64,000 nucleotides of DNA from the NCBI GenBank assembly GCA_026003755.1, contig BPHV01000001.1:310001-374000 (forward strand), written 5' to 3'. This stretch comes from Candidatus Roseilinea sp. Its GTDB lineage: Bacteria > Chloroflexota > Anaerolineae > J036 > Brachytrichaceae. The notes beneath the pieces were generated by a model. The model was given only the letters and a program-made list of their open reading frames with translations. It made no database searches and was not told where the DNA came from. Position numbers and translations under genes: made by a program. This document shows, in pieces, positions 4,401 through 51,659 of this stretch. Each line of letters opens with the position of its first letter. Positions within the stretch are counted from its first letter, which is position 1.

Positions 4401-7400
4401 GGGTGGGCGTTCTTCGTCGTGAACGTCCACCACACGCCGCCATTAGCCGGCGTCGTCCCACTGCCGTTCTTCGCCCGCACCTGCCAGAAGTACGTCGTCC
4501 CGGGGGCCAGGTTGCTCAGCGTATAGCTCAGCGCACTGCCCACGTTCAGCCAGGCGTTGCCAGGCATCGCGTCGCAACTGTTGACCGCCGTCCCGGCGCA
4601 CACCTCGTAGCTCGTCGCGCCGGCCGCCGCAAACCACTTCAGCGTCAAGCTGGCCGTTGGCAGGTTGAAGCTGCCGTTCAGCGGCGCATCCTTGCTGAAC
4701 GCCGCCGGCCCGCTGCTGCTCTGCGTCACAAAGTAGAAGTCCACCCCGTTGTCGGCAAACGTCCGCGTCGCGGTCAGCGTGCTGTAGGCGCGCACCTGCC
4801 AGTAATACGTCGTACCCGGCTGCAACGTCACGCTGAACGGCAACTGGTTGATGTAACGCGCGGTGTAAGGACCCACGTCCTGGAACCCACCGCCGCTCAG
4901 GTCGCACGCGCCCGGCACTGTGCCCATGCACACCTCATACCCATCCGATGAATCAGCAGCCGTCCACGTCAACTGCAGCACGGCCGGGTTGGTCGGCGCG
5001 CCAACCGCGCCGTTGGCCGGGTGCGTCTTCTGGAACGGACCGGGCACGGGCGGGTTGAGCGTCTTGAAGCCCCACGCCACGCTGTTGTTGGCCGCCGTGC
5101 ACCCACCGGCGTTGCACGCGCTTACCTGCCAGAAATACTGCGTCCCGTAATCCAGCCCCGTCAACGCGTAGCTGGCCACAGTCGTCGTAGTGTTGACCAG
5201 GCTGCACACGCCAATGTTGACGCCAACGCACACGCTGTAATACGTCTCGTCCGGCGTGTCCTGCCAGGTTAGATTCAAACCCAGCGGCTGGTCGGTGGCG
5301 TTGTTCGGCGGGTTGATCTTGGTGAACGCCTGCGGCGCGTTCGGCACCGTAGTGAACGGCCACCAAGCATTGCTGTCCGCGCCGGTGCTGCCGCCCGCGT
5401 TGTGCGCCGTCACCTGCCACACCAGCGTCGCCCCCGCCAGCAGCGGCCCGCTCAGCACCGCGCTGGTCGTCGTGCTGGTGACGCTGTAGCTGCAATCGCC
5501 CGCATACGCCCCCACGCACACCGTGTAGCTCACCGCGCCGGTCGCCGCCTGCCACTGGAACGTCACGTTCTGCGTCGGCACGTTGGTCGCATTGAAGCTC
5601 GGGCTGAGCTTGTTGAACGGGTCGGGCCCGTTGGGCAGCGTGGTGAACGACCAGAACGCCAGCGTGCTGCCGTTGGCCGGCGTGGTGTATGTGCCGTTGG
5701 TGGCCAGCACCTGCCAGTAATACGTCGTGTTCGGCTGCAGCGGCAGGTCGTTCAGCACCCGGAAGTAGGTGTTGCCCAGGCTCGCGAACTGCCCCGGCCC
5801 GCCGCCGACGATGTTGCAATTGTTGGGCGCCGTGCCCAGGCACAGCTTGTAGTCGTTTGCGTTGGCCGCCGCCGTCCACAGCAACTGCGCTGTGTTGGTG
5901 TTGACGTTGATCGCCCCGTTGCTCGGAGCGAACTTGTTGAAGCTGCCCACCGTCGCCGCCGTCTGGAACGACCAAAAGCTGCCGCTGTTGGCCTCGGTGC
6001 AGCCGGCGCTGTTGCACGCCCGCACCTGCCAGTAATATAGCGTCCCGGCCGCCAGGCCAACAACCGAGGCGCTGGTGTTCATGCCAACGTCCGTCCACGT
6101 GCCGCACGACGTGGTCGTGCTCACGCAGTATTCATACTTGTCCACTACACCGCCGGCTGTGCCCCAGCTCAACGTCGGATTGGTCGGCAAGTTGGTGGCG
6201 GTGTGGGCCGGGTTGAGTTTGCTGAAGCCGCTCCCGCTCGGCGCGCTGACCACCGTGAAGTTCCAGTGCCCGCCAGGGCCGTTCGCATCGGTGAACACCG
6301 TGCAGCCGACGTCCGCGCACGCCCGCACCTGCCAGTAATACGTCGCCCCGGGCGTCAGGCCGGTCAGGTTGACGCTGGTGTTCGTCCCGTTATTCGTGCT
6401 CGGCGTGCACCCGTTCGTCGTGCTGTAGCAGTAGCGGTAGTGGTTCACCCCACTCGCCGCGCCCCACTGCAACGTCACGTTGGTCGGCTGCCCCGTCGCC
6501 CCGTTGCTCGGGCTGCTCTTGCTAAACCCGCTCGGCGCGCCGACCACCGCGAAGCTCCAGTGCGTGCCGCCGTCCGCATCGGTGAACACCGTGCAGCCGC
6601 TGTCCGCGCACGCCCGCACCTGCCAGTAATACGTCGCCCCAGGCGTCAGGCCGGTCAGGTTGACGCTGGTGTTCGTCCCGTTATTCGTGCTCGGCGTGCA
6701 CCCGCTCGTCGTGCTGTAGCAGTAGCGGTAGTGGTTCACCCCCGTTGATGCGCCCCACTGCAACGTCACGTTGGCCGGCTGCCCCGTCGCCCCGTTGCTC
6801 GGTGCGGTCTTGTTGAAGCTGCTCGGCGCGTTGACTACGGTGAAGCTCCAGTGCCCGCCGCTCGCATCGGTGGACACCGTGCAGCCGCTATCCGCGCACG
6901 CCCGCACCTGCCAGTAATACGTCGCCCCAGGCGTCAGGCCGGTCAGGTTGACGCTGGTGTTCGTCCCGTTATTCGTGCTCGGCGTGCACCCGTTCGTCGT
7001 GCTGTAGCAGTAGCGGTAGTGGTTCACCCCACTCGCCGCGCCCCACTGCAACGTCACGTTGGCCGGCTGCCCCGTCGCCCCGTTACTCGGTGCGGTCTTG
7101 TTGAAGCTGCTCGGCGCGTTGAGCACCGTGAAGTTCCACCACGCCCCGTTGTTCGCCCCGCCGTTGCAGCCGGAGCTGTTGCACGCCCGCACCTGCCACT
7201 CATACGTCGCGCCGGGCGTCAAGCCGTTCAGCGTGAAGCTGCTGACGTTGCCCACGTTCTGCCAGCTCCCGTTGCACGTCCCGTTCGGATTGGTGTCGTA
7301 GCACACCTCGTAGAAGGTGGCATCGCCGACCGTCGTCCAGCTCAGGTTCAGCCCGTTGACCGGCTGGCCGCCTGCCCCGTTGGCCGGCGTGTTCTTGTTG

Positions 7401-9382
7401 AAGCCGCTCTGCGTTGGGACGTTCCCATACGTGAAGGTGATGTCCTGCAGGGCCGGGCTGGCCTCGGTGGTGCGGTCGCGCCACAGCACCACCCGATAGC
7501 GCGCGTAGCGCCCGCTCACCCCGCTCAGGCTCTGCGTCCACGCCCCGTTGCCCATCGCCCCGACCTGGACCCAGCTTGGATTGTTCAGCGCGCTCGGGTT
7601 ATCGCCGGCCGCCACGAACAGCGTGATGCCCGTGCCGGCAGCGATGTTGGTGTTGGCCTGCACCTGCGGCCAGGCCGAGCCGGCCTGCCCGCTGTCCATC
7701 AGCATGGACTCCAGCACGCCGTAATTAGGGAAGGCCGTGCCGTAGGTGGGGCGCGGCTGGCTGAACCCGTTGCCGTTGGTGCCGCGCGCGGAGCCGAAGG
7801 AAGCATACGCGCCGGGAGAGGACTGCACCGGCAGATCAAAGGCGTACATGCCATACGGCGCAGCATTGTTTGTGTTATGGAAATACACCAGCCCGTTGGT
7901 GCCGCCGGTCCAGTATAACGATAAATAGATCGGACTTATGCCCTGTCGCCCGATTAGCAGGTCGACCCGGTTATCCGCATTCAGGTCGCTCAGGCTCAGC
8001 CCGCGGAAGCCAAACCCATGGTTGTGATCCCAATAGCTGGTCGCTGTACCGCTGGTCGGCAGCGGCCCCCAAAACACGCGGGTGAATCCGCCGTGGTAAT
8101 TCAGTAGCGCCACGTCGCGCTGGCCGTCGTTGTTCAGGTCGGCCACAGAAACCTTTTGTGCGCCCACACCGGGCAGGTCGGTGCGGGCAGCGGTCGAGTA
8201 GCTCACCCCATACGTCCCGCCGGCCTGACCCCAGTATACATAACTATTGAGGTAGCGGGTGCTGTTGTTGTCGAAGTTCGCGAAGATCACCTCCGGCCGG
8301 CCGTCGCCGTTCAGGTCGGCTACGGCGACGCCGCTACCCCCGCTGGTCGGCAGGACGGTGCGAGCGGCGGTGCTGTAAGTCACCCCATACGTCCCGCCGG
8401 CCTGCCCCCAGTAGATATAACTGTTAACGTTGAAGGTGCTATCGTCGTTGGTGTTCGAAAAGATCACCTCCGGACGCCCGTCGCCGTTCAGGTCGGCTAC
8501 GGCGACGCCGCTACCCCCGCTGGTCGGCAGGACGGTGCGAGCGGCGGTGCTGTAAGTCACCCCATACGTCCCGCCGGCCTGCCCCCAGTAGATATAGCTA
8601 TCGATGAGGTGGGTGAAGCCATTGCTGTAGTTCGCGAAGATCACCTCCGGACGTCCGTCACCGTTCAGATCGGCCACCGCCACGCCAGTCGCCGAGTTCG
8701 TGGGCAGGTTGGTGACGGCCGAAGCCGAGTAGCTCACCCCATACGTCCCGCCGGCCTGCCCCCAGTAGATACTGCTATTAGTAGCGAGAAGAGAGAGGAT
8801 CACCTCCGGCCGCCCGTCGCCGTTCAGGTCGGCCACCGCGACGCTGAACCCGCTGCTCGAGGGCAGGTCGGTGCGGTCAGTAGCGCTCCAGCTTGGGTTG
8901 TTCGTAAGGCCGCCGCCCCAGTAAATCTGCCCACCAATGGTGCCTTGCCAGTTCACGAACAGCAGCTCGGAGACGCCGTCGCCGTTCAGGTCGCTGGAGT
9001 AGGGGTTGCCCTGGTCAGACTGCCAGTTGCCGGCCAGGCGCAGCGTTTGGCCGCCGGCGGCGTCGCCTGGCCCCTGGCACCAGGCGCCCGCGCCGGCGCA
9101 CACGCCAAAGGTGCCGGTCGGCACGGCAAAGCCGGCGAGCGTCGGGCGGTAGTATTGGGTCGTCCCGCTGGGTTGCACGCTCAAGCCGGTGCTTGGCGTG
9201 CTCCACTCGGTTTGCGTCCATGTGCCGCCGGTCAACGGCGCGGCCTGGGCCGGGGGCGGGTTCAGCGCCGCCCCGCCAAACAAACTCGCCACCAGCGCGA
9301 GCTGGGCTACAACATGAAGCAGCACGCTTCGCGCGCCACGTCGGCGCGCTAACGATGGGCTAAACTGGGTATCGCTTTGCAT
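1496..9382 (-). CDS. Giant secreted FG-GAP / FN3-like repeat protein (2628 aa)
   Basis: This is an extracellular or cell-surface protein. The start is set by an AAAGGAG Shine-Dalgarno 6 nt before the ATG at 9382; an earlier in-frame start at 9490 would lie inside the promoter. Order of parts: signal peptide (hydrophobic LLHVVAQLALVASLFGG, then AQAAP); a Cys-containing segment; about seven FG-GAP/VCBS blades with DLNGDGRPEV calcium-binding loops (roughly residues 130-480); a stretch resembling a carbohydrate- or coat-binding domain; 18 FN3-like modules of about 95 residues, each opening with a FxK-x-P motif and ending near TYYWQVRA; then a DUF11-type domain (TPTQVRIGDLVTYTIVLSN) and a short tail. 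Most modules hold a Cys pair spaced about 8-10 residues. No catalytic domain or sortase signal is seen. Adhesion or sheath formation is plausible but inferred. Confidence 0.85.
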   Translation of the reverse strand: MQSDTQFSPSLARRRGARSVLLHVVAQLALVASLFGGAALNPPPAQAAPLTGGTWTQTEWSTPSTGLSVQPSGTTQYYRPTLAGFAVPTGTFGVCAGAGAWCQGPGDAAGGQTLRLAGNWQSDQGNPYSSDLNGDGVSELLFVNWQGTIGGQIYWGGGLTNNPSWSATDRTDLPSSSGFSVAVADLNGDGRPEVILSLLATNSSIYWGQAGGTYGVSYSASAVTNLPTNSATGVAVADLNGDGRPEVIFANYSNGFTHLIDSYIYWGQAGGTYGVTYSTAARTVLPTSGGSGVAVADLNGDGRPEVIFSNTNDDSTFNVNSYIYWGQAGGTYGVTYSTAARTVLPTSGGSGVAVADLNGDGRPEVIFANFDNNSTRYLNSYVYWGQAGGTYGVSYSTAARTDLPGVGAQKVSVADLNNDGQRDVALLNYHGGFTRVFWGPLPTSGTATSYWDHNHGFGFRGLSLSDLNADNRVDLLIGRQGISPIYLSLYWTGGTNGLVYFHNTNNAAPYGMYAFDLPVQSSPGAYASFGSARGTNGNGFSQPRPTYGTAFPNYGVLESMLMDSGQAGSAWPQVQANTNIAAGTGITLFVAAGDNPSALNNPSWVQVGAMGNGAWTQSLSGVSGRYARYRVVLWRDRTTEASPALQDITFTYGNVPTQSGFNKNTPANGAGGQPVNGLNLSWTTVGDATFYEVCYDTNPNGTCNGSWQNVGNVSSFTLNGLTPGATYEWQVRACNSSGCNGGANNGAWWNFTVLNAPSSFNKTAPSNGATGQPANVTLQWGAASGVNHYRYCYSTTNGCTPSTNNGTNTSVNLTGLTPGATYYWQVRACADSGCTVSTDASGGHWSFTVVNAPSSFNKTAPSNGATGQPANVTLQWGASTGVNHYRYCYSTTSGCTPSTNNGTNTSVNLTGLTPGATYYWQVRACADSGCTVFTDADGGTHWSFAVVGAPSGFSKSSPSNGATGQPTNVTLQWGAASGVNHYRYCYSTTNGCTPSTNNGTNTSVNLTGLTPGATYYWQVRACADVGCTVFTDANGPGGHWNFTVVSAPSGSGFSKLNPAHTATNLPTNPTLSWGTAGGVVDKYEYCVSTTTSCGTWTDVGMNTSASVVGLAAGTLYYWQVRACNSAGCTEANSGSFWSFQTAATVGSFNKFAPSNGAINVNTNTAQLLWTAAANANDYKLCLGTAPNNCNIVGGGPGQFASLGNTYFRVLNDLPLQPNTTYYWQVLATNGTYTTPANGSTLAFWSFTTLPNGPDPFNKLSPSFNATNVPTQNVTFQWQAATGAVSYTVCVGAYAGDCSYSVTSTTTSAVLSGPLLAGATLVWQVTAHNAGGSTGADSNAWWPFTTVPNAPQAFTKINPPNNATDQPLGLNLTWQDTPDETYYSVCVGVNIGVCSLVNTTTTVASYALTGLDYGTQYFWQVSACNAGGCTAANNSVAWGFKTLNPPVPGPFQKTHPANGAVGAPTNPAVLQLTWTAADSSDGYEVCMGTVPGACDLSGGGFQDVGPYTARYINQLPFSVTLQPGTTYYWQVRAYSTLTATRTFADNGVDFYFVTQSSSGPAAFSKDAPLNGSFNLPTASLTLKWFAAAGATSYEVCAGTAVNSCDAMPGNAWLNVGSALSYTLSNLAPGTTYFWQVRAKNGSGTTPANGGVWWTFTTKNAHPPAEFAKQSPPHLATGVVTTGLTLSWAASTGATGYQVCIGSAPGLCEATGGWVNVGNNTSWVVTPALQAATTYWWQVQALGGTFSVQANGGQWWAFTTRPDGPADFSKQQPLQSAIGVPTGTAVLSWTTALGASNYEVCLGTQAWLCDVTGTWLNVGNVTAWNPPVLQAATTYWWQVRAVNSSGGRTQANGSVWWHFTTVPAFGPNPPAPFGKVSPLNNAANQPINLTLSWGAASGATGYEVCVGALPNDCSTSGGWVSVAGTSYALSGLSYDTTYWWQVRAVNANGQTLADSGAWWHFTTGNNPGAAGSAFNKRLPMHLATGVPTATAVLSWTASSGATGYRVCIGSAPGLCEATGGWVDVGNATSWAVTPALQAATTYWWQVRAAGLGFDIQADGGQWWAFTTANDPAPAPEGFGKLQPLQGASGVPTGTAVLSWQPSANASNYEVCVGTQADLCDVTGNWVSAGSATSWNAPSLQPATTYWWQVRAVNGSGQAQADGGAWWYFTTAAAASAPAPFGKVSPPNNAANQLTNLTLSWGAASGATGYAVCVGALPGDCSTTGGSWVNVAGTSYALSGLAHDTTYWWQVRAVNANGQTLADGGVWWRFTTGNNPASPLGTFGKSAPAANATGVLTNTTLSWSAAANAQRYTVCVGTLPGLCDVMNHVEVLAPATSLVLANAQAGRTYWWQVWAHDGNGAFLLADAGQWWPFTTANNVGSGPGGGPAEFQKVAPISGTMVGNSPLLSWTASGGAVGYYVCVGRAWGLCDVVNNAATAGLSHATNGLAPGTYWWQVTAVDAYGDTTQADGGARWQFIVVNNLLSGSLDNVDTRKEVTPTQVRIGDLVTYTIVLSNSGGVSVTVRVSDTLATALTLVGATPGYAQSGQTLVWENVLVPAGGTTELTVTAQVNTNALSNPTVNNSVVISSYADGEPPLVRDADPVDVEVYRAFLPVAHKPASTFAFVPVVIRP
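6240..7118 (-). repeat. Three near-identical FN3-module repeats (~290-300 bp each)
   Basis: Units of about 6240-6537, 6538-6828 and 6829-7118 share very long identical runs, including the part encoding the YRYCYSTT and GLTPGATYYWQVRACAD segments. The other modules in the gene are clearly diverged. This points to recent tandem duplication inside the gene. Confidence 0.8.
8146..8890 (-). repeat. Tandem FG-GAP blade repeats at the nucleotide level
   Basis: Blades of about 180 bp repeat here. The pair around 8290-8400 and 8470-8580 is almost identical across the DLNGDGRPEVIF loop, the YWGQAGGTYGV stretch and the intervening linker. The divergence gradient toward both ends indicates expansion by recombination. 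Confidence 0.7.
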
Positions 9383-9503: not shown

Positions 9504-9743
9504 GGGGGGTAGCCCAAGGCCCAAGCTCTTCACAAAATACGTGTTAAAGTAGGGCAAGCGTAGGGCAATCGTCAGAATAGGCTAAGTGATTTCTAAGCAA
9601 CTTTTGGAACACGCCGCTACGGGTGGCGCATATGCCCGATGCGTCGCAACGTCCACAGGCCCCACGCCGTGCGCACGCGCGCGGTATTCGCCGGCATGGG
9701 GATCGTTCCACCACCTGCCCCCGCCTGGGGGTTCTGGCCTGTC

Positions 9744-9895
9744 CTAGACAGCCTGGAGGGCTGTGCTACAACAGCCAGACAGCCTGGAGGGCTGTGCTAC
9801 AACAACCTAGACAGCCTGGAGGGCTGTGCTACAACAGCCAGACAGCCTGGGAAGGCTGTGCTACAACAACCTAGACAGCCTGGAAGGCTGTGCTA
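9744..9895. repeat. Five tandem ~31-bp palindromic repeats
   Basis: Five units, each with the core ACAGCCT-GGA-AGGCTGT or a close variant (GGAGGGCTGT) followed by GCTACAACA, repeat every 31-32 bp. Flanks alternate between CTAG and CCAG, giving a super-period of about 63 bp. Each unit can fold into a hairpin, and there is no spacer, so it is not a CRISPR array. It fills the gap between the promoter of the giant gene and the end of the MBOAT gene. Bases 9504-9743 hold no other recognisable gene. Confidence 0.85.
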
Positions 9896-9935
9896 CGCTC
9901 CCGCGCCGGCGTTGGACCGAGTCCACATCCCCCCT

Positions 9936-22821: not shown

Positions 22822-24147
22822 CTACGCGCCAGGCACATCCGTCAACCCAGCGAACGCCGATCGGCCCTTCTCGTGGGCGACGAACGCCTCGCGCGGCATC
22901 GCGATCAACAGCGCCAGCGCCACGGCGATCAACACCATCTCGACCGCGTACACGGTCGTATAGCCTCGCGCCAGATCGCCGGTGATGCGCGAGACGACAT
23001 CGCGCAGGTTGCTGCCGGCCAGCGCAGCCAGCCCGGCCGCCGACGTCTGCGCCAATCCCCACATGCCGACGTACATGCCGGCCGTCTTGATGTCTGCCAG
23101 GGAAACGACCAGCGAAAGCGTGGAGATCAGGAATAAGCCGCCGGCGAGGCCGATCACGCCGGTCCCGCTGATGAACATCGCCACCGAGTGGTTCGCGCTG
23201 GCCATGGTGATCAGGCCAAAGCCAGCCAAGCCCACCAGGCAGGCAGCAAACGTGACCGGGATCGGCGAATTCAAGCGCGGAATGACCTGCCAGGCGATCA
23301 GCATGGCGATCAGCATACCGATGCCCCACATGGCCGTGAGCCGAGTCGTCTCTGCGACGCTCATGCCGAGCACCTGCCCGCCGTACGGTTCGAGCAGCAC
23401 GTCCTGCGCCGTCAGCCCCAGCGTGCCAAAGAAGAGGATGGCGAAGAACAAGCGCATCTTGTGCGTCCCCAGCATCGTCCAGATTCGGCTGGAGAAGTCC
23501 TCCGCGTCATCCTCTAGCTCCACGGGCTGATCCTGCTTCCAGATGGCTGCGACGGCCAGCACCAGGAAGATCACCGAGGCCGACTGCATCACCTGGATCA
23601 GCTTCATCGGGTGGAAGTCCTGCAGGAAGAAGCCGATCACAAACGAGCTGATGATCTGGCCGGTGATCAACGCGATCCACAGCAGCGCCATAGCGCGGCT
23701 GCGCTCGTGCTTGGGGGTGAGGTCGGTCACCAGCGCCAGGTAGCCGGTCTGCCCGACGTGCGTCCCGATGGCATACAGCAGGAAGATCAGCGTGCAGAAG
23801 AAGACGGCGACGGGGAAAGGCACGTCGCTGTTCAACTGGGACGCTTTGCTCAGCAGCAACAACGAGAACGGGGCGGCAGACAGGCCGCAGAACACGAGCA
23901 TTGTGCCGTACCAGGCGTAAGGCAGGCGTCGGTAGCCGAAGGTCTTCTTCTCCTTGTCGGATCGGAAGCCCATCAACGCGCGCACAGGCGCGACGAACAG
24001 CCCGAGGCTGAGCAGCCAACCGACGATGCCGGCCGGAATGCCCTCTTCTGCAATCAGCACACGGTTCAGCGCGCCGTTAAACACGACCACGCTGAACCCC
24101 AGGCCAAGTTGGAAGAGGCTGAGTCGCAGGAGCCGCTTGTTGATCAC
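22822..24147 (-). CDS. PucC/LhaA-type (BCH2) light-harvesting assembly protein
   Basis: 441 residues with 12 predicted membrane helices, MFS-derived PUCC family. Seen: the loop RALMGFRSDKEKK after helix 2, GYRRLPYAWYGTMLVFCG, LTDLTPKHERSRAMALLW and LEPYGGQVLGMSVAETTRLTAMWG, which match PucC/LhaA proteins. These help insert or assemble antenna complexes and may handle bacteriochlorophyll. The likely start is GTG at 24147; an in-frame TTG at 24195 lies inside the 7-bp repeat array and is not believable. The array ends just upstream and supplies GGAG units as Shine-Dalgarno. It directly follows pufC, so it belongs to the puf operon. Confidence 0.85.
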   Translation of the reverse strand: MINKRLLRLSLFQLGLGFSVVVFNGALNRVLIAEEGIPAGIVGWLLSLGLFVAPVRALMGFRSDKEKKTFGYRRLPYAWYGTMLVFCGLSAAPFSLLLLSKASQLNSDVPFPVAVFFCTLIFLLYAIGTHVGQTGYLALVTDLTPKHERSRAMALLWIALITGQIISSFVIGFFLQDFHPMKLIQVMQSASVIFLVLAVAAIWKQDQPVELEDDAEDFSSRIWTMLGTHKMRLFFAILFFGTLGLTAQDVLLEPYGGQVLGMSVAETTRLTAMWGIGMLIAMLIAWQVIPRLNSPIPVTFAACLVGLAGFGLITMASANHSVAMFISGTGVIGLAGGLFLISTLSLVVSLADIKTAGMYVGMWGLAQTSAAGLAALAGSNLRDVVSRITGDLARGYTTVYAVEMVLIAVALALLIAMPREAFVAHEKGRSAFAGLTDVPGA

Positions 24148-24158
24148 GATGCTTTCCG

Positions 24159-24214
24159 AATCTCCAATCTCCAATCTCCAATCTCCAATCTCCAATCTCC
24201 AATCTCCAATCTCC
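24159..24214 (-). repeat. Eight perfect 7-bp tandem repeats between pufC and the PucC-like gene
   Basis: AATCTCC (GGAGATT on the coding strand) is repeated eight times without error in the gap of about 70 bp. The coding-strand unit carries GGAG, so the last copies can act as Shine-Dalgarno for the GTG at 24147. The copy number is likely to be unstable by slippage. Confidence 0.9.
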
Positions 24215-24216
24215 CA

Positions 24217-25440
24217 CTACTGCGACGGCAGCTTGGGCGCAGGCACCGGCAGATCCACCAACGGTTTGATCTGCGGATCGCTCACCTTCTGCGGCACTTC
24301 GCCCTCGCCAGGCAGGTAGGCGCCAGGCGGCACGACGTTGCCGCGGTGGCACATCCAGCAGTTCGGCTGGGCCAGGTTGCCGCGCGCCGGGTCGGCCTTG
24401 GGCATCTGCGGGAACCAGTTGATGGCGATGTCCTGCACCATGCCGAGCATGTGGCGAGACTGCGACTTGGGCCACTTGAACGTGCCGTCTTCAAGCACAT
24501 ACGACTTGAAGTAGCCGCCGTAGTGGCAGAAGTCACAGCCGACGCCCAGCGCCGTGTTCATGTGGTACATCGCGGCCTGGTTGCGGTAGGTGTCGTTCAG
24601 GCCGGCCGGCGTATCCTTGTTGGCAGTCACCTGGAAGTAGTTGACATTGCCTTGCGCGTCGGGCCGCGCAGCCAGCAGCTTATCGTCCACGATCTCGTAG
24701 CTGGCAGGCGGCTTGCCGTTCAGCGTGATGCCGTAGTGCTTCATGTCGTACTGCGTCGGATTGCCGCCGCCGGCGATGCCGAACATCGCCAGGTTCTCGA
24801 GTGTGGGCACGTTCTTCTGGTCGGTGTTCCAGAACTGCGCCTTGCCATAGTGACAGGTCGCGCACTGCAGTTGATACAGCGGCTGACCCTCTGGCCGCGG
24901 AATGCTGCTGATCCACTTGTTCTGTAGTTCGAACTGCATGATCAGCATCGCCTTGGCGACGGTCTTCTGCGGCTTGTCGTAGGCGGCGAAGTTCTGCAGG
25001 TTGTGGCAGTACTCGCAGCTCTGGCCCACGCCCGGCGTGAAGTACTTGCTCATGTACTCGAACACCTTGGCCGTGGTGTTGTATTGCGGTCCGAGATACT
25101 GGGTGAGCACCTGCACGTTGACCGTCCGCGGATTTTGCTGTTGCCAGACGTTGTACGCTTGAAGCGCCTCGGCGCTCGGCTGCGCAATCGGCTGCTTTAG
25201 CCGGTTGAGGTATTCGACGTAGTCAATCCGCTGCACGCCGGCGTAGTTGTAGGTGCTCTCGGCGCGATAGCCCTGGAACTCGCGCCAGTCGGTGAGCGCC
25301 ATGGAGAGGGCGATCACGCCGCCCAGGGCGAGGATGGTCATGGCAACCAGGCCAACCAACTCGCCACGCAGAATTTGGCGTTGTCTTTCGTCGTAAACGG
25401 CGATTGCGCCGGGAGGAGCGGGGTCATTCTCGAAGGACAT
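24217..25440 (-). CDS. pufC: Reaction-centre tetraheme cytochrome c subunit
   Basis: 407 residues. PufC re-reduces the photo-oxidised special pair on the outer face of the membrane. One N-terminal membrane helix (about 28-50) anchors it; there is no lipobox. Four CxxCH heme sites are present at about 142-146 (CEYCH), 193-197 (CATCH), 302-306 (CDFCH) and 361-365 (CWMCH), as expected for the tetraheme form. Met residues before the sites, for example in KAMLIMQ and AAMYHMN, are candidate axial ligands. AGGAGG lies 6 nt before the ATG. It follows pufM by 9 bp in the puf operon. Confidence 0.95.
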   Translation of the reverse strand: MSFENDPAPPGAIAVYDERQRQILRGELVGLVAMTILALGGVIALSMALTDWREFQGYRAESTYNYAGVQRIDYVEYLNRLKQPIAQPSAEALQAYNVWQQQNPRTVNVQVLTQYLGPQYNTTAKVFEYMSKYFTPGVGQSCEYCHNLQNFAAYDKPQKTVAKAMLIMQFELQNKWISSIPRPEGQPLYQLQCATCHYGKAQFWNTDQKNVPTLENLAMFGIAGGGNPTQYDMKHYGITLNGKPPASYEIVDDKLLAARPDAQGNVNYFQVTANKDTPAGLNDTYRNQAAMYHMNTALGVGCDFCHYGGYFKSYVLEDGTFKWPKSQSRHMLGMVQDIAINWFPQMPKADPARGNLAQPNCWMCHRGNVVPPGAYLPGEGEVPQKVSDPQIKPLVDLPVPAPKLPSQ

Positions 25441-25449
25441 GATAGCCTC

Positions 25450-26340
25450 CTATGGCGCGCAGGCTTTTTGCAAGCCTGGCACGATACCCGCGCGGCAGCC
25501 CCAATCGAACCAGTTGGGTTCAACCGGCCCGCTCAGCAACACGCCGATGGCGCCGGCCACGGCGACCAGCGTGGCGAAGCCCAGCGCCCACTGGTGAATG
25601 GTGTAGGCCGTCGCGTTGAAACCCATGACCCAGCGCCACAGCAACTGTGCGCGGTGTGTACCCTCGTCGCTGTCCTCAATCTCGTCAATCTCGCGATGCG
25701 CGTTGTAGGACAGCGTAGCCAGGATCGTGGCGCCGTGCATGGCCAGAATCACCGTGCTGCCCAGCAGCGCGAAGATCGAAACCATGTGGAACGGGTTGTA
25801 GTAGAAGTTGCCATACTTGACGCTGAAGTGGTTGGTCCACAACAGGATGCCGCGCAGGCCATGTGGCGGCGCTTCGTTCCACGAGTTCACCCAGATCGGA
25901 TGGATGATGTAGATGGCCGCGTAGAGAAACAGCGCCGCGCTGAAGGCGATCGGCACCATCGGGCGCAGGCCATTGGCCACGGCGCGCGTCCAGATGCGGA
26001 TCGTCCAGAACACCAGCGTCAACGAGAGGAACAACGTGGCGAGCTGCCAGTAGCCGCCCTCCTGCAGCGGCGCCATCCGCAAGCCGGCTGATGGCGGCGG
26101 CGGGTAGAGCGTGAGCACGGGCAGTTCGCGCAGGAAGCGAATTGGGTTGTAGCCCACCTGCTCGCCAAAGCCAATGGCGGTGATGAACACACACAGCAGG
26201 TAGGAGAAGAACGCTAGCGCACCCCACATCCCCAGGTAAATCGGGCCCACTTGCGTGTCGGCCAGACCCTCCAGGAAGCGGAGATACCTCACGGTTTTGG
26301 TGCGCCGCTCGAAGCTCTCGCGATACACTTCTGTAGCCAT
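25450..26340 (-). CDS. pufM: Photosynthetic reaction-centre M subunit
   Basis: 296 residues, five membrane helices. The special-pair ligand His185 (NPFHM) and the iron ligands His202 (MHGAT), Glu217 and His249 (IHQWA) line up with H202, H219, E234 and H266 of Rhodobacter M at a constant offset of 17. Ile165 stands where Rhodobacter has His182, the ligand of the accessory bacteriochlorophyll, and Leu193 stands in place of Tyr210. The first change is the one associated with a third bacteriopheophytin in Chloroflexus. GGAG is 6 nt before the ATG. The gene is separated from pufL by a 207-bp gap full of 7-bp repeats; it is not fused to pufL. Confidence 0.95.
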   Translation of the reverse strand: MATEVYRESFERRTKTVRYLRFLEGLADTQVGPIYLGMWGALAFFSYLLCVFITAIGFGEQVGYNPIRFLRELPVLTLYPPPPSAGLRMAPLQEGGYWQLATLFLSLTLVFWTIRIWTRAVANGLRPMVPIAFSAALFLYAAIYIIHPIWVNSWNEAPPHGLRGILLWTNHFSVKYGNFYYNPFHMVSIFALLGSTVILAMHGATILATLSYNAHREIDEIEDSDEGTHRAQLLWRWVMGFNATAYTIHQWALGFATLVAVAGAIGVLLSGPVEPNWFDWGCRAGIVPGLQKACAP

Positions 26341-26370
26341 AGTTTCTCCAGAAGGTCAGACGGCAGAGTT

Positions 26371-26515
26371 CAGAAGCCAGAAGCCAGAGACCAGAGGCCA
26401 GAAGCCAGAGGCCAGAGGCCAGAAGCCAGAAGCCAGAGGCCAGAGGCCAGAAGCCAGAAGCCAGAGGCCAGAGGCCAGAAGCCAGAAGCCAGAGGCTAGA
26501 GGCCAGAGGCCAGAG
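26371..26515. repeat. Twenty 7-bp tandem repeats between pufL and pufM
   Basis: Units CAGAAGC and CAGAGGC (one CAGAGAC, one TAGAGGC) run for 20 full copies plus five bases. The order shows a higher pattern of two AAGC units then two AGGC units. The array fills most of the intercistronic gap and keeps no open frame linking L to M on the coding strand. Confidence 0.9.
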
Positions 26516-26547: not shown

Positions 26548-27405
26548 CTAGTTGAAGGGGAAGGACTTCCAAAACGGCGCGTAGTCCCAGAAGTCCCAGA
26601 AAGCGCTCCAGTCTTGGACCACCGTGCCGGACAGCACGAAGCACAGGTTGCTCATCAGCACGCACATCACCGCCGCCCAGAAGGCCAGGCGATGGATGCC
26701 GATTTCGCCGATGCTGTAGCCGAAGAAGTCCCAGTAGAAGCGGTTGACGTTCTCCTCCGTCACGCCCTCGCTCTTCTTGCGCGCAGCGCTGAGGATGGTG
26801 GCGCCATGCAAGGAGAGCACGAACGCGCTGCCGAACAACAGGGTGATGCCGATGGCGTGGAAGGGGTTGTAGAAGAAGTTGTAATAGCGATAGCCGAAGG
26901 CCGAGAGCCAGTCTAGATGAGCCATCACACCCAGCGGGAAGCCCTCGGACCAACTGCCGAGCAGGATTGGGCGCACGATCTGTATCGTCACCCAAGAGGA
27001 CAACACCGCCCCAAAGGCAATCGGCACCTGATACCCGATCTTCAGCAGGCGCGAGATGTCTATCTGCCGCATCATCCACGCGAAGAACGTGACGGTCGCG
27101 CAGAAGACTACGAAGAGCCACCAGAAGCCTTTGTTTGGGTCGAAGGTGATGGCCAGGCCGACGCTCGGCGGCGGCGGCGCAATTTGCCCGCGGATGAAAT
27201 TCAGCAGCGGGTTGTTCGTCCGATTGGGGTCAACGAACAACACCTGCCAGAACCATACGCCCGATCCGAGGATGCCGAAGAACAGCGCCACCACGCCCCA
27301 GAAACCGAGGTAGAAGCGGCCGATCCAGATCTTCAGCAGGCCGAATGAGGCGCGCGCGGGGACGGCCATCGCCTCTTGGCGATATTTCGCCTCGAACGAC
27401 AACAT
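26548..27405 (-). CDS. pufL: Photosynthetic reaction-centre L subunit
   Basis: 285 residues, five membrane helices. Ligands present: His163 (AHLDW, accessory bacteriochlorophyll), His183 (NPFHA, special pair), and His200 (LHGAT) and His238 (IHRLA) for the non-heme iron. Positions correspond to H153, H173, H190 and H230 of Rhodobacter L. Phe178 replaces L-His168, which hydrogen-bonds the special pair in purple bacteria, and Phe191 is at the L-Phe181 position. AAGGAG lies 9 nt before the ATG. It is the third gene of the puf operon, after an intercistronic hairpin. Confidence 0.95.
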   Translation of the reverse strand: MLSFEAKYRQEAMAVPARASFGLLKIWIGRFYLGFWGVVALFFGILGSGVWFWQVLFVDPNRTNNPLLNFIRGQIAPPPPSVGLAITFDPNKGFWWLFVVFCATVTFFAWMMRQIDISRLLKIGYQVPIAFGAVLSSWVTIQIVRPILLGSWSEGFPLGVMAHLDWLSAFGYRYYNFFYNPFHAIGITLLFGSAFVLSLHGATILSAARKKSEGVTEENVNRFYWDFFGYSIGEIGIHRLAFWAAVMCVLMSNLCFVLSGTVVQDWSAFWDFWDYAPFWKSFPFN

Positions 27406-35882: not shown

Positions 35883-35999
35883 ATTTCACATCTCTCCTTT
35901 CACAACCCCAACTCAAACGACTCAAGCCGGGCGAGAATAATTCTGGAAAGTGAGAGAAGACTGAGATGCATGCGGAGGGGGTGCGCTTGTGTGGAGTAG

Positions 36000-36393
36000 T
36001 GGAGATGCCGGGAATCGAACCCGGGTCCGAAATGCGCCTGCCGCGAGTGACTACGAGCGTAGTTGCCGTTTTAATCTCGCGCCCGGCATCCCCGGCAACG
36101 GGGTTATCCAGACGCCAGTTCGTTGATTCGGCGATCAGCCCGCGTTAGCTCACCTACGAACCTCGGTGAAACGCGCGCCGGCTTTATCACACCGTTACGC
36201 CCCCCACCGGCGCGAGGAGACGAACGATGCCGCAGACGCTATGCTGCGGATGCAGCCCTTTGGCTTACGCAGCCATCGGGACGGCATTCCAGTTGATCTT
36301 CTTCGCACTTACTGTGCTGCGCGCTGTTTAACGAGAGTCGCTTCTCGGCTCGCCACTCGGACACGACACAATCCGTCGAAACCTGTCATCCCC
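36000..36393 (-). ncRNA. ssrA: Transfer-messenger RNA (tmRNA)
   Basis: The tRNA-like ends pair: 5' GGGGATG (36393-36387) with 3' CATCTCC (36007-36001), discriminator A at 36000, and the CCA is not encoded. The T-arm reads GGACCCGGGTTCGATTCCCG, and GACAGGTTTCGACGG follows the 5' end, as is typical of ssrA. The tag frame lies at 36306-36265. tmRNA frees ribosomes stalled on broken messages and tags the product for proteolysis. Length is about 394 nt. Confidence 0.93.
36265..36306 (-). other. tmRNA proteolysis-tag reading frame
   Basis: The resume codon is probably GCG at 36306, giving the 13-residue tag AKKINWNAVPMAA and then TAA. The terminal Ala-Ala fits recognition by ClpXP-type proteases. 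The middle is unlike the common ANDENYALAA tag. Confidence 0.7.
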
Positions 36394-36453: not shown

Positions 36454-37314
36454 ATGAACAAGGCCGAGATGACCCAACGCCTGGAGCGCGCCTTCCCAAC
36501 AGAGCAGGCCGGCGTGCTGGCCGAGGTGATTTATGACGCCTATGACGCGCTGGTCAAGGCTAGCGACTTCAGCGAGTTGAAAGCGACGGTCACCGAGCTG
36601 GTCGAGGCGCAGAAGCGCACCGAGCAGCGCGTCGCCGAGTTGGCCGAGGCGCAGAAGCGCACCGAGCAGCGCGTCGCCGAGTTGGCCGAGGCGCAGAAGC
36701 ACACCGACCAGCGCGTCGCCGAGTTGGCCGAGGCACAGAAGCACACCGACCAGCGCGTCGCCGAGTTGGCCGAGGCGCAGAAGCACACCGACCAGCGCGT
36801 CGCCGAGTTGGCCGAGGCGCAGAAGCACACCGACCAGCGCGTCGCCGAGTTGGCCGAGGCGCAGCGACAAACTTCGGATCAGCTCCGCGACTTGATCGGG
36901 ATTGTGCGAGGGCTGGCTACTGAAGTCGGTAGCCTTTCGCGCACCATGAGTTATTCCCTCGAAAACGAGGCCTATCGCCTGTTGCCCGATTTGCTCAGGC
37001 GAAATTTCGGCCTTGAGATCGAGCAGAAGATCGTGCGCACCGAGATCAACGGCGAAGAGATCAATCTGTTCGGCCGGGCGCGCCGGAACGGCCAGACCGT
37101 GCTGATCGTCGGCGAGTCGAAGCTCCGGCTGGATATGCGTTCTGACGAGCGGCAGGAAGTGTTTGAGCAGCTCAAACGCAAAGTGGCAGCCGTGCGCGAG
37201 GCCTACCCGGGCCAGGAAATCATGCCGGTGCTGATCACGCACTATGCGCGGCCGGCCTTCCTGCAAGAGGCGCAGGCGCGCGGCGTGCATGTGTTTCAGA
37301 GCTTCGAGTGGTAA
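36454..37314 (+). CDS. Coiled-coil protein with C-terminal PD-(D/E)XK-like domain
   Basis: 286 residues. An N-terminal helix leads into a heptad coiled coil made of 14-residue units [14 protein letters not shown] (about residues 46-145). The second half (about 175-286) has an alpha-beta pattern with [23 protein letters not shown], where the Glu-Ser-Lys fits the ExK end of a PD-(D/E)XK nuclease-like core, and ends [15 protein letters not shown]. Related proteins are common in Chloroflexota and cyanobacteria (DUF3782-like) without known function. TACAAT is 21 nt upstream of the ATG. Confidence 0.7.
36631..36840 (+). repeat. Five 42-bp tandem repeats encoding coiled-coil units
   Basis: Units start at 36631, 36673, 36715, 36757 and 36799, are nearly identical, and degenerate copies flank them. 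Each encodes 14 residues, two heptads, so gain or loss of a unit keeps frame and coiled-coil register. Confidence 0.9.
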
Positions 37315-47631: not shown

Positions 47632-47704
47632 AGCTACCTTCGGGAGTCGAACCCGAAACCCATCGCTTACGAAGCGATTGCTCTGCCGATTGAGCTAAGG
47701 TAGC
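47632..47704 (-). tRNA. tRNA-Thr (anticodon CGU)
   Basis: 73 nt folding into a full cloverleaf: acceptor GCTACCT/AGGTAGC, D-stem GCTC/GAGC, anticodon stem ATCGC/GCGAT with loop TTCGTAA, and T-arm TCGGG-TTCGACT-CCCGA. The anticodon CGT is at 47671-47669 and reads ACG. The discriminator is U, and CCA is not encoded. Confidence 0.95.
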
Positions 47705-48222: not shown

Positions 48223-49389
48223 ATGACCCCACGGATGATCGCAATCTACGGCAAAGGCGGCATCGGCAAGAGCTTCTTCACCGCCAATCTCAGCGCCAAG
48301 ATGGCACTCAAAGGTCTGCGCGTGTTGCAGCTTGGTTGTGACCCCAAGCACGACAGTTGCAACGCGTTGTTCGAGGGGCGTAGCTTGCCGACCATCGGCG
48401 ATCAGTGGCGGCTTTTCAAAGACGCCGGCCGTGAGAAGGAGCTGGACGTGCGTCACTTGATCTTCAAAGCCGACCTGGGGCGCGGCGCGCAGCTCTTCGG
48501 CGCGGAGTTAGGCGGGCCGGAGGTTGGCCGTGGCTGCGGCGGGCGCGGCATCTCCTTCGGCTTCGGCCTGCTCGAAGAACGCGGCATGGCCAACTGGGCG
48601 TTGGATTACATCATCATGGACTTCCTCGGCGATGTGGTGTGCGGCGGCTTTGCGACGCCCATCGCTAAGAGCCTGGCCGAGGAGATCATCATCGTCGCCA
48701 GCCATGACCGCATGAGCTTGTATGCGGCGAACAACATCGCCCGCGCCGTCAACTACTTCCAGGCCATGGGCGGCAGCACGCGCCTGATCGGCATGGTGCT
48801 CAACCGCGACGACGGCAGCGGCGTGGCCGAGCGCTTCGCCGAGCGCATCGGCCTGCCCATCTTGGCCAAGATTCCCTTTAGTCCGGCTGCGCGCGCGCTC
48901 AGCGACCGCTGCAAGTTGCTCTTCGAGCTGCCGGAGATGGATGCCATCTTCGACGCCTTCGTCAATAAGATTCACCATCGCGAATACACGGCGCCGGAGA
49001 AGGTCACGCCTCTGGAATACGACGAGTTCCTGGCCGTGTTCGGCGCAAGTGAGCCGCCGGACCTGCCCGAAGGCGCCACGCTCGACGAGCTGATGGGACG
49101 CGACAGCCAATCCGTGGTCGGCATTGACCTGAACAGCCCAGACTACAGCCAGGACAGCAAAGTCCTGGTGCGGCGCATCATGCAAGAGATGGGGCTGAAG
49201 GTCATTCGGCTGGTCGAAGAGCCGGAACGCGGCGTGGTGGTGACGACCGAGGCCGGCTGGGAAGCGATCTTCGGCGACCCGTGCAAAGACATGGATGCCA
49301 AGATCGCGATTTTGTCTGCGCTCGGCCACAGCGGCGAAAAGTTCCGCCTGGCCGACCTGCGCTATACGGCTGCGCCGTTCTATGAATGA
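48223..49389 (+). CDS. bchX: Chlorophyllide a reductase, iron protein subunit
   Basis: 388 residues, NifH/BchL-like. The dimer hydrolyses ATP and passes electrons from a shared 4Fe-4S cluster to BchYZ, which reduces ring B on the way to bacteriochlorophyll a. Seen: P-loop GKGGIGKS (10-17), cluster ligands Cys105 (GRGCGGRG) and Cys140 (VVCGGFATP), and switch-type VLQLGCDPKHDS. It reads as BchX, not BchL, because of the LQLGCDPKHDSCNALFEG form and the long C-terminal part (about 285-388). GGAG is 5-8 nt before the ATG. It heads the bch gene run. Confidence 0.92.
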   Translation: MTPRMIAIYGKGGIGKSFFTANLSAKMALKGLRVLQLGCDPKHDSCNALFEGRSLPTIGDQWRLFKDAGREKELDVRHLIFKADLGRGAQLFGAELGGPEVGRGCGGRGISFGFGLLEERGMANWALDYIIMDFLGDVVCGGFATPIAKSLAEEIIIVASHDRMSLYAANNIARAVNYFQAMGGSTRLIGMVLNRDDGSGVAERFAERIGLPILAKIPFSPAARALSDRCKLLFELPEMDAIFDAFVNKIHHREYTAPEKVTPLEYDEFLAVFGASEPPDLPEGATLDELMGRDSQSVVGIDLNSPDYSQDSKVLVRRIMQEMGLKVIRLVEEPERGVVVTTEAGWEAIFGDPCKDMDAKIAILSALGHSGEKFRLADLRYTAAPFYE

Positions 49390-49395
49390 GAAGTC

Positions 49396-49465
49396 GGAGA
49401 TTGGAGATTGAGATTGAGATTGAGATTGAGATTGAGATTGAGATTGGAGATCGGAGATTGGAGAG
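49396..49465 (+). repeat. GGAGATT/GAGATT tandem array before the 7-TM gene
   Basis: Two GGAGATT units, six GAGATT units, then GGAGATC, GGAGATT and GGAGAG run directly into the ATG at 49466. It is the same unit as in the array before the PucC-like gene, here on the plus strand. The GGAG at 49453-49456 is 9 nt from the ATG and can serve as its Shine-Dalgarno. Confidence 0.9.
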
Positions 49466-50164
49466 ATGGTAGCGCATCCCGACTTTCCCCTCGTGATGGC
49501 GCTCCAGAACTACATGCCGGTGGCGCTCTCGGCGCTGGGGCTGTTCTGGATCGCGCAACAGGTTCGCGCGGCGCACGCAGAGGCCGGACGACTTGCCTTC
49601 GTAGGCGTGGCGCTGATCATTGTGGCCGGGACGCTGAAAGCAACCTGGAAGTTGGTCATGTCCATCAGCCGCGTGGATGTGCCACTGTTCAGCCAGTCGC
49701 TCTTCCCGCTCATCGCGCCGGGGTTCACGTTTGTCGCCTGGACGCTCTTCGTGAGCAAGAGCAAGCGCATGCGCACCCAGGATGGCAACAGCACCTTGGT
49801 ATGGCTTCCGCCGGCGCTGGGCAGCGTCGCTACGCTCGTGTTCGCGCTCGCGCTGGCGCTCACCCGGCCGGATCGCACTTGGGTCTTCGTGCTGATCGGC
49901 GTCTCGACCGTGGCCAACGTGGCCCTGGCGGCGTTGCTGATCCACAGCGCGCTCGGGCAACGCAATCGCCTGGCCGCCGGTCTATTCGCCCTCAACCTGA
50001 TCATCACATTTGTCCTCAGCGGCATTGCCGGCATGCCGAACAAGCCGCTGGAGGTGCACTGGGGCGAGCAGATCATCAGCACCATCTCCAACGCCGGCTT
50101 TGCCTGGGCGGCCTGGATGCTCGCACATTCCCAAACTGCCGCGCTTCAACCCCGCCCGACCTGA
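49466..50164 (+). CDS. Seven-helix membrane protein of unknown function in the bchX-bchY gap
   Basis: 232 residues. Seven hydrophobic segments are evident, for example YMPVALSALGLFWIA, LAFVGVALIIVAGTL, LFPLIAPGFTFVAWTLFV, WLPPALGSVATLVFALALAL, TWVFVLIGVSTVANVALAAL, GLFALNLIITFVLSGIAG and a last one ending AGFAWAAWMLA. There is no signature of a known transporter or enzyme, and no conserved Lys of a rhodopsin in the last helix. It sits between bchX and bchY in the same direction, so a role in pigment synthesis or photosystem assembly is a reasonable guess and no more. Confidence 0.75.
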   Translation: MVAHPDFPLVMALQNYMPVALSALGLFWIAQQVRAAHAEAGRLAFVGVALIIVAGTLKATWKLVMSISRVDVPLFSQSLFPLIAPGFTFVAWTLFVSKSKRMRTQDGNSTLVWLPPALGSVATLVFALALALTRPDRTWVFVLIGVSTVANVALAALLIHSALGQRNRLAAGLFALNLIITFVLSGIAGMPNKPLEVHWGEQIISTISNAGFAWAAWMLAHSQTAALQPRPT

Positions 50165-50213: not shown

Positions 50214-51659
50214 ATGGCAAGCCTGACCGTTCCAGAAGGCAATTTGATCACTCCTGAGATTATCCAGACGCGGAGCAAATCTTCGGTCTCCGACCTTCAA
50301 TCTCGAACGGGCCACTCGGTCTCGCCCGACTACAACCTCACCCCACAGACGATGTGTCCGGCCTTCGGCAGCCTGCGCGTGCTCACCCGCATTGATGGCG
50401 TGCAGACGGCGATGGTGACCGATACCGGCTGTCTGTATGGGTTGACTTTCGTCACGCACTTCTACGCCGCGCGCAAGAGCATCGCTGCGCCCGCCTTCGG
50501 CACGAAAGAATTGGTGGCCGGCAACGTGGCCGAGGCGGCCATCGCGGCGTGCATCGAGGCGAGCAAGATGCCCGGCACCAAGCTGGTGGCAGCCATCTCG
50601 CTGTGCGTGGCCGAGACGGCCGGCCTGACCGAGGAGATGCTGCCCAAGCAGATCAACGGCGTGGACGTGATCCTCGTACGGGTGCCGGCCTACGCGATTC
50701 ACTCACATCCCGAGGCAAAAGATGTCGCCATCAACGCCCTCCTCAAACGATACGCCCCGGCCCAAACAGAAATCACGGCAGATGGCGTGGAGCGGCCGCT
50801 GACTTACGATGGAAGCAACGAGGAGGAAGAGGCGCTGCGCCGGAAGGTCATCATGCTCGGAGAAGTCTTCCCTGCCGATCCGATCTCCGTGGATGCGGTG
50901 CTCAAGCGGCTGGGGAGCGGCCTGGCAGCCACGTTACCTTCGCGCAACCTCGATGACTACAAGCTGGCGCGTCGCGTAGGCGCGATTGCTGCTGTGCATC
51001 CGTTCTATGGCGGGAGCGTCGCCACGTTGCGCGCGGCCGGCGTGCCGATCATCAGCGGCGCGCCCGTTGGCCCCGAGGCGACTTACAACTGGATCAAGGC
51101 CGTCGCCGCAGCGCTCAAACTGGATGGCGAACTGGCGGAGCAAGTGGCCGCCGAAGAGCGCGACAAGTGCAAGGCCATCATCAGCCAATTCCCGCTGCGG
51201 GGCAGAGTGATGGTATGCGGCTACGAAGGCAACGAGCTGCTCTACGCGCGCTTGCTGGTGGAAGCCGGCGCCGAAGTGCCTTACATCAGCACCAGCATTC
51301 AAAAATCGCTCTACACCGCCGCCGACGAGGCGTGGCTGAAAGCGCGCGGCACGCGTGAGATCATCTACCAAAAAACACTGGAGCAAGACGTGCGCGCGCT
51401 CGACCGCTACCAACCCGATCTGGTGCTCGGCACCACGCCGCTCAGCGCCGAAGCGAAGCAACGCGGCATTCCCGGCATGTACTACACTAACATGTTGAGC
51501 GTGCGACCGCTCTTCCTCAGCGCGGGCCTGGCCGGCACCATCCAACTGATTCGCGACGCGCTCGAACGCGCCCCGCGCTACGCGTGGATGCGCGAGTTCT
51601 TTGAAGGCCCGCGCCCACCCGCGCCTGCCGGGCCGGCGCCGATCAACACGATGGACTAG
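50214..51659 (+). CDS. bchY: Chlorophyllide a reductase subunit Y
   Basis: 481 residues, BchN/NifD-like. With BchZ it forms the catalytic heterotetramer that reduces the C7-C8 bond of chlorophyllide a. Candidate 4Fe-4S ligands are the Cys residues in MCPAFGS, DTGCLYG and ISLCVAE. Further BchY-like parts are LLYARLLVEAGAEVPYIS and VLGTTPLSAEAKQRGIP. GAGGAG is 9 nt before the ATG. It is followed by bchZ after 33 bp. Confidence 0.92.
   Translation: MASLTVPEGNLITPEIIQTRSKSSVSDLQSRTGHSVSPDYNLTPQTMCPAFGSLRVLTRIDGVQTAMVTDTGCLYGLTFVTHFYAARKSIAAPAFGTKELVAGNVAEAAIAACIEASKMPGTKLVAAISLCVAETAGLTEEMLPKQINGVDVILVRVPAYAIHSHPEAKDVAINALLKRYAPAQTEITADGVERPLTYDGSNEEEEALRRKVIMLGEVFPADPISVDAVLKRLGSGLAATLPSRNLDDYKLARRVGAIAAVHPFYGGSVATLRAAGVPIISGAPVGPEATYNWIKAVAAALKLDGELAEQVAAEERDKCKAIISQFPLRGRVMVCGYEGNELLYARLLVEAGAEVPYISTSIQKSLYTAADEAWLKARGTREIIYQKTLEQDVRALDRYQPDLVLGTTPLSAEAKQRGIPGMYYTNMLSVRPLFLSAGLAGTIQLIRDALERAPRYAWMREFFEGPRPPAPAGPAPINTMD

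Follow-up and report, generated by a model that had tools for sequence, protein, structure and literature searches.

In the genome of Candidatus Roseilinea sp. analysed here, the gap between the reaction-centre gene pufC and the pucC-like gene appears to have lost a predicted RNA hairpin that all 15 relatives examined carry at the same place, and holds instead a single-armed array of a heptamer repeat. The array lies in the window, i.e., the whole stretch of 64,000 nucleotides that was analysed, together with a second array in the bch genes. Our best explanation, which we consider probable when taken as a whole, is that both arrays come from a degenerate heptamer family (approximately NGAGATT) that is dispersed in the genus of this hot-spring phototroph, Candidatus Roseilinea; that the pufC–pucC gap is a hairpin slot kept in the relatives and lost in this genome, with an altered puf:pucC ratio; and that the array in the bch genes is a one-armed member of the family, whose GGAG stands at ribosome-site distance from the next gene by happenstance.

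Arrays in the puf and bch genes

The features of the window are listed in Table 1; the window's genome is referred to as G000 and its congeners as G001–G008, which are working labels for the compared genomes. The identity of the puf operon is backed by Pfam matches to two reaction-centre proteins (PF00124), a cytochrome (PF02276), and PUCC (PF03209), and the two PF00124 genes are presumably pufM and pufL in the order given, a naming that we take from the gene order. The nearest PucC in named genomes (97%) is that of Candidatus Roseilinea sp. NK_OTU-006, and the PucC relatives in named genomes belong to Candidatus Roseilinea and other Thermoflexales/Anaerolineae MAGs. Array A was described in the initial annotation as a minus-strand run of eight perfect GGAGATT copies ahead of the PucC-like gene, which is borne out by the sequence and by TRF. 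It takes up most of the 72-nt gap from the pufC stop codon TAG (24219–24217) to the pucC start codon GTG (24147). The units had been thought to reach the start codon in both gene clusters; they do so at the bch site, whereas 11 nt separate the last unit from the GTG at the puf site. The spacer between pufL and pufM, occupied by a second heptamer family, is 210 nt long in G000, 54–108 nt in G001–G008, and 14–18 nt in six other relatives.

Array B directly adjoins the start of the 232-aa gene at 49466, named the 7-TM gene in the initial annotation, but it is not composed of GGAGATT throughout, as had been assumed: TRF reports a period of 6, the core consists of six GAGATT hexamers, and the ATG follows directly after a final GGAGAG. 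This hexamer run may be what slippage leaves after a unit has lost one G and has then been copied; (GAGATT)3 was not found elsewhere in the G000 genome. The array B spacer folds with −14.7 kcal/mol. The gene before array B is the one we take to be bchX, from gene order and length, and the one after the 7-TM gene is presumably bchY. When compared to other species, the gap between bchX and the 7-TM gene varies in its repeat unit, with GGAGATT/GAGATT in G000 and a CAGAAGT-like unit in G007, while G004 has a GC-rich hairpin and G001 an insertion of 659 nt, the frames of which resemble, by eye, a small antitoxin and a PIN-domain protein. The 7-TM gene between bchX and bchY is 5′-truncated and broken in G002 (G002:C16, about 106900–107450) and present in the other congeners.

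Table 1. Positions in the window of the arrays, their neighbouring genes, and other repeats and RNA genes.
Feature	Position	Strand	Basis or remark
Long tandem repeats, 288 bp and 177 bp	6233..7231 and 8172..8771		
32-bp tandem unit, 4.8 copies	9743..9896		Looks partly palindromic
pucC-like gene, GTG start	22822..24147	-	ORF; PF03209, E 3.6e-104; start region conserved among orthologues
pufC–pucC spacer, TAG to the base before GTG	24148..24219	-	Hairpin slot in 15/15 relatives examined
Array A, eight perfect GGAGATT, without inverted partner	24159..24214	-	Sequence, TRF
pufC, reaction-centre cytochrome c subunit	24217..25440	-	ORF; PF02276, E 2e-19
pufM	25450..26340	-	ORF; PF00124, E 1.3e-76
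Second heptamer family in the pufL–pufM spacer, ~24 copies of CCAGAGG/CCAGAAG (plus-strand writing)	26348..26515	-	TRF
pufL	26548..27405	-	ORF; PF00124, E 7.6e-74
tmRNA	35997..36393	-	Rfam
42-bp tandem repeat, 6.6 copies	36589..36864		97% matches
tRNA gene	47632..47704	-	Rfam
bchX-like gene, NifH/frxC family	48223..49389	+	ORF; PF00142, E 1.6e-69
Array B, GGAGATT x2, GAGATT x6, GGAGATC, GGAGATT, GGAGAG; weakly structured	49396..49465	+	Sequence, TRF
232-aa gene (7-TM gene), without Pfam match	49466..50164	+	ORF; matches in 8/8 congeners
bchY-like gene, nitrogenase component 1 type	50214..51659	+	ORF; PF00148, E 1.1e-45

A dispersed heptamer family with inverted pairs

Chance is excluded as the source of the window arrays, because the 14-mer (at most one mismatch) has nine matches in the window, with 0.01 expected from shuffles. 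The initial annotation had tied the unit to the phototrophy clusters, to which it is not special: (GGAGATT)2 has 28 matches at 15 places of the G000 genome, and GAGATTNGAGATT has 82 matches there, with 24 for the reversed-pattern control. Among relatives, (GGAGATT)3 was present in 9 of the 60 genomes searched (reversed-pattern control, 0); a phylum-wide draw of 400 genomes had 11 with this array (control, 1). Within the genus, its matches range from none (G005, G006, G008) to more than 20 (G001, G002).

As the sequences show, a frequent form of the family is an inverted pair in which the GGAGATT arm comes first and the AATCTCC arm second, able to give an RNA hairpin that spans the distance from a stop codon to the next start. 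The pattern GAGATTNGAGATTN{3,33}AATCTC had 462 matches, in 9 of 12 genomes, and the opposite arm order had 4 across the 12 genomes, all in G026; these matches overlap, and neither figure is a number of loci. The loops of the listed pairs look mutually unrelated. Pairable inverted heptamer arms, the mark of cyanobacterial STRR-type hairpins, are found in the family and not in the two window arrays. Pairing is not inherent in the GGAGATT unit, because G426, from another family of the phylum, has 260 matches of (GGAGATT)3 and no inverted pairs. In the same genome, one contig ends inside an array and has AGGAAGC-type heptamers as well.

A second heptamer family (CAGAAGT/CCAGAAG/CCAGAGG) is equally visible, with three arrays in 300 kb of G000 picked without regard to arrays. 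In this sample, period 7 was the commonest single TRF period in non-coding DNA (4/16 rows). A general seven-base period of non-coding DNA was rejected, the lag-7 autocorrelation being 0.271 versus 0.267 in shuffled sequence. Additionally, heptamer arrays of other kinds end at or shortly before start codons, namely repeated AATTCTC in G007 and ACTCACA-type units in G000 and G007.

Position of the arrays relative to genes

The site set comprised 76 sites, 32 from G000 and 44 from G007, the latter taken from the first 100 of 180 matches with five listed clusters left out. Duplicate sites were removed, and two sites at the ends of stretches were unclassed, which left 74 classed sites. Genes were called with a codon-likelihood caller, whose stops are surer than its starts. 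Among the matches listed for both genomes, 51 of the 74 classed sites were intergenic and 23 lay in called coding sequence, compared with about 15% non-coding bases (p = 1e-25) in stretches that were selected for holding arrays and whose base shares are not a random sample. The intergenic sites, among the matches listed, fell into 42 co-directional, 6 divergent, and 3 convergent gaps, the divergent class being under-represented by base share (p = 0.005). Sense GGAGATT was found at 29 of the 37 co-directional one-strand sites listed and antisense at 8 (p = 7.5e-4), with sense shares of 14/15 in G000 and, among the matches listed, 15/22 in G007 (p = 0.13). Of the sense arrays, 23 of 29 stood nearer to the preceding stop than to the following start, as against 3 of 8 for the antisense orientation (Fisher p = 0.035; among the matches listed). 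This is the expected trace of a hairpin with GGAGATT as the 5′ arm after the stop and AATCTCC as the 3′ arm before the start.

The relation to gene boundaries proposed in the initial annotation thus stands as far as intergenic and co-directional placement is concerned, but the sense arrays favour stops. The preference expected for positions 5–60 nt before starts did not bear out ribosome-site tuning as a rule: among the matches listed, 11 of 29 sense arrays were so placed versus 7 of 8 antisense arrays, which carry no GGAG on the mRNA. An inverted partner (score at least 11) was present at 16 of the 51 intergenic and 18 of the 23 coding sites listed, versus 5 of 120 random pieces. With a clear partner at only 16 of 51, a large share of the intergenic sites has a single arm, which counts against a uniform hairpin role. 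That the unit has no stops in any of the six frames was rejected as an explanation of its insertion into coding sequence, since half of the possible heptamers are equally stop-free.

The hairpin between pufC and pucC

The relatives examined were the 15 with a PucC identity of at least 60%, R. mizusawaensis and G015 being one record; they share ancestry, and only about seven of their stem sequences are independent. A strong hairpin was predicted in 14 folded pufC–pucC spacers (−27 to −43 kcal/mol, z −3.2 to −8.2), and the fifteenth relative, G014, has a perfect 11-pair stem, recognised by sequence and not by z. As a baseline, z values below −3 occurred in 5 of 91 co-directional gaps of 40–200 nt and in 1 of 120 coding pieces of G000. 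In the seven congeners G001–G007, the stems are formed by GGAGATT-like heptamers paired with AATCTCC-like ones, and other stems occupy the slot in G008, G013, G014, G010/G017, SKYG95, and CALBEF/R. mizusawaensis, amounting to about seven unrelated sequences in all. The exception is G000 alone, where one assembly has one arm of eight copies and the spacer folds with −8.3 kcal/mol (z −1.05). The main stem starts no more than 28 nt past the stop codon, in G001 at the stop codon itself, and ends 12–25 nt before the aligned coding start (14 relatives). Covariation in the G001–G007 stem is weak (both sides changed in 1 of 12 pairs, covariation term 0.21), so that the case for the slot is built on the replacement of whole stems and not on compensating changes.

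A hairpin in every puf gap was ruled out, since the pufM–pufC gap has a stable fold in 0 of 15 genomes and the pufL–pufM gap is very short in the six relatives mentioned above. A rho-independent terminator was likewise rejected: the 10 nt after the stem contain at most 3 T in 11 of the 14 relatives and 4–5 in the remaining three, and a terminator scan of 23900–24500 returned 0 terminator-like sites. The Rfam scan of the window returned the tmRNA and one tRNA only, with no known RNA family at the arrays.

Probable gain, loss, and exchange of units

Both the copy number and the type of unit at the same site differ between species. A probable example of exchange concerns a gene encoding an FAD/Fe-S oxidase of 1000 residues, which in G000 contains an in-frame heptamer hairpin in a linker (G000:C1, about 694926–695006). 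This hairpin is present in G000, G007, and G001; G005 has a hairpin made of a different unit in its place, and G002, G003, G004, G006, and G008 lack it. Per 60-nt bin, the G000 gene is mostly 90–100% identical to that of G002 and mostly 75–90% to that of G007. A run of 173 nt, exactly over the hairpin, is identical in G000 and G007, while the nearer relative G002 has no hairpin. This tract within an otherwise diverged gene suggests that recombination carried the hairpin between lineages, and the hairpins thus seem to spread by local recombination. No comparable identity tract was seen at the puf or bch arrays.

Proposed mechanism and alternative explanations

In the explanation that we favour, units would be gained and lost through replication slippage, as the copy patterns suggest, and whole hairpins would be swapped between lineages by short-tract recombination, of which one tract is clear. 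At the pufC–pucC gap, every relative examined has kept a hairpin though the sequence was repeatedly replaced, and in G000 slippage or a deletion may have left only the 5′ arm, which then expanded to eight copies; in the assembly only this arm remains, and the hairpin is gone. The hairpin would normally determine how much product the reaction-centre genes give compared with pucC. It would do so by shielding the 3′ end of pufLMC, by helping ribosomes to re-initiate at a start codon that has no Shine-Dalgarno site, or by both routes, and G000 would have a changed pufLMC:pucC ratio. A bolder reading, which we offer tentatively, is that selection at the slot acts on the presence of a hairpin regardless of its sequence, that active heptamer families overwrite the stems via recombination tracts of ~170 nt, and that the species of the window has naturally lost a regulatory hairpin, slippage having produced the one-armed array and altered the reaction-centre:pucC ratio.

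For most sites, neutral persistence is a serious rival, and as a complete account we judge it rather unlikely. Slippage would amplify the units and recombination would spread them, and they would persist where they are nearly harmless (after stops, in co-directional gaps, in protein linkers) and have no regulatory role. The sporadic presence of the family among relatives and in the phylum fits this reading, as do the differing heptamers at one slot (GGAGATT or CAGAAGT at bchX–7-TM, another unit in the G005 coding linker), the location of 23 of the 74 sites classed among the matches listed within called coding sequence, and a unit that is stop-free in six frames, as are half of all heptamers. 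It leaves unexplained the pufC–pucC hairpins of 15 out of 15 relatives, including lineages with non-heptamer stems, and the near-strict arm polarity of the inverted pairs. An artefact of assembly or polishing at 24148–24219, with a true locus that has a hairpin as in the relatives, is improbable: the one-armed state comes from one assembly, and arrays can end contigs, as in G426, but the spacer flanks align to the relatives without a break and the G000 genome is in 5 contigs. An array of 56 nt is also well below usual read lengths.

The tuning of ribosome sites, in which the GGAG of the unit would act as a Shine-Dalgarno sequence and copy number would alter downstream translation, was proposed in the initial annotation and is very unlikely as a general explanation. 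At 49466, the GGAG ends 9 nt before the ATG, and the excess of sense over antisense orientation among the matches listed (29 versus 8) is in its favour. However, the sense arrays listed lie close to stops, and a Shine-Dalgarno site at the usual spacing is supplied by the array in 1 of 32 array gaps, that of the bch site; the GGAG nearest to pucC begins 18 nt upstream of the GTG, and the pucC of most of the 14 relatives compared has no Shine-Dalgarno 4-mer at the usual spacing. Tuning is hence a possibility at the bch site but improbable at the other sites. When Shine-Dalgarno-like 4-mers were counted by the definition of PMC4679880, they occurred in 5 of 32 array gaps versus 56 of 247 gaps without arrays (p = 0.50); a genome-wide replacement of Shine-Dalgarno sites by hairpins was rejected on this non-significant difference. 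Genes after arrays are thus not short of such sites compared to others, and a general coupling role is therefore not favoured. Just as little credence is given to the arrays being sites at which a regulator binds RNA or DNA, a role suggested for the TAACTGA repeats of Beggiatoaceae (PMC4679880). The resemblance to that case lies in direct repeats that are dispersed, stand near gene boundaries, and occur sporadically among genomes, but the sense arrays listed here lie mainly after stops, and inverted pairs with a fixed arm order are common.

Comparison with known systems

A hairpin in a puf operon, between pufBA and pufLM, reportedly acts on the stability of segments of the transcript (attributed to Klug et al. 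1987). The slot described here is likewise in a puf operon gap, at pufC–pucC instead, and the two are likened by position and not by homology.

Heptamer repeats with inverted pairing are already in print for other phyla. In PMC4692102, the GGGNATC and GGGGA(C/T)T heptamers of Xanthomonas and Nostoc are mostly intergenic and lie between aligned ORFs, with few between divergent ones; their G-rich strand is the coding strand up to 50 bp after stops and the non-coding strand up to 50 bp before starts, and convergently oriented inverted pairs are described for Xanthomonas, inverted pairing being rare in Nostoc. The Roseilinea arrays share the tandem unit of 7 nt (with a hexamer core in array B), the enrichment in non-coding DNA, the location mostly between aligned ORFs with under-representation between divergent ones, and, among the matches listed, a purine-rich strand that is coding near stops and non-coding near starts (Fisher p = 0.035). 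In contrast to the heptamers of that paper, GGAGATT has GG tracts only and misses the G3 quadruplex pattern, which places it outside the quadruplex class and within the wider heptamer kind; the host belongs to the Chloroflexota, and inverted pairs are frequent here, in contrast to Nostoc.

PMC2670836 describes cyanobacterial heptanucleotide STRR, including a hupS–hupL hairpin, for which roles in transcript stability or translational coupling are suggested. The Roseilinea repeats resemble them in forming intergenic hairpins from 7-bp units and in having the same two candidate roles, and differ from what is described there in units and phylum and in a slot where a hairpin persists through changes of stem sequence. 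Likewise, the P6b stem of the Nostoc tRNA-Leu(UAA) intron, described in PMC4476775, is composed of degenerate repeat classes (TDNGATT, NNTGAGT). It is similar in building a stem from degenerate repeats ending in GATT and in the repeated replacement of the repeat class at one site, but is a single locus in a group I intron, whereas the Roseilinea family is dispersed and mostly intercistronic. The TAACTGA direct repeats of Beggiatoaceae, situated just upstream of starts and proposed as protein sites in PMC4679880, are also dispersed, lineage-sporadic heptamer direct repeats at gene boundaries; unlike them, the Roseilinea arrays follow stops and are often inverted pairs.

A literature search with little coverage of subscription journals returned no description of these repeats in Chloroflexota, nor of an operon slot with a hairpin rebuilt from differing stems and lost in one species. 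Heptamer repeats are on record for cyanobacteria, xanthomonads, and Beggiatoaceae, and Roseilinea adds a lineage of Chloroflexota phototrophs to them. The local recombination tract around a hairpin gives a lead on how such repeats spread, and the pufC–pucC gap offers a comparative test case in which one operon gap carries a hairpin throughout the 15 relatives examined and seems to have lost it in the window's genome.
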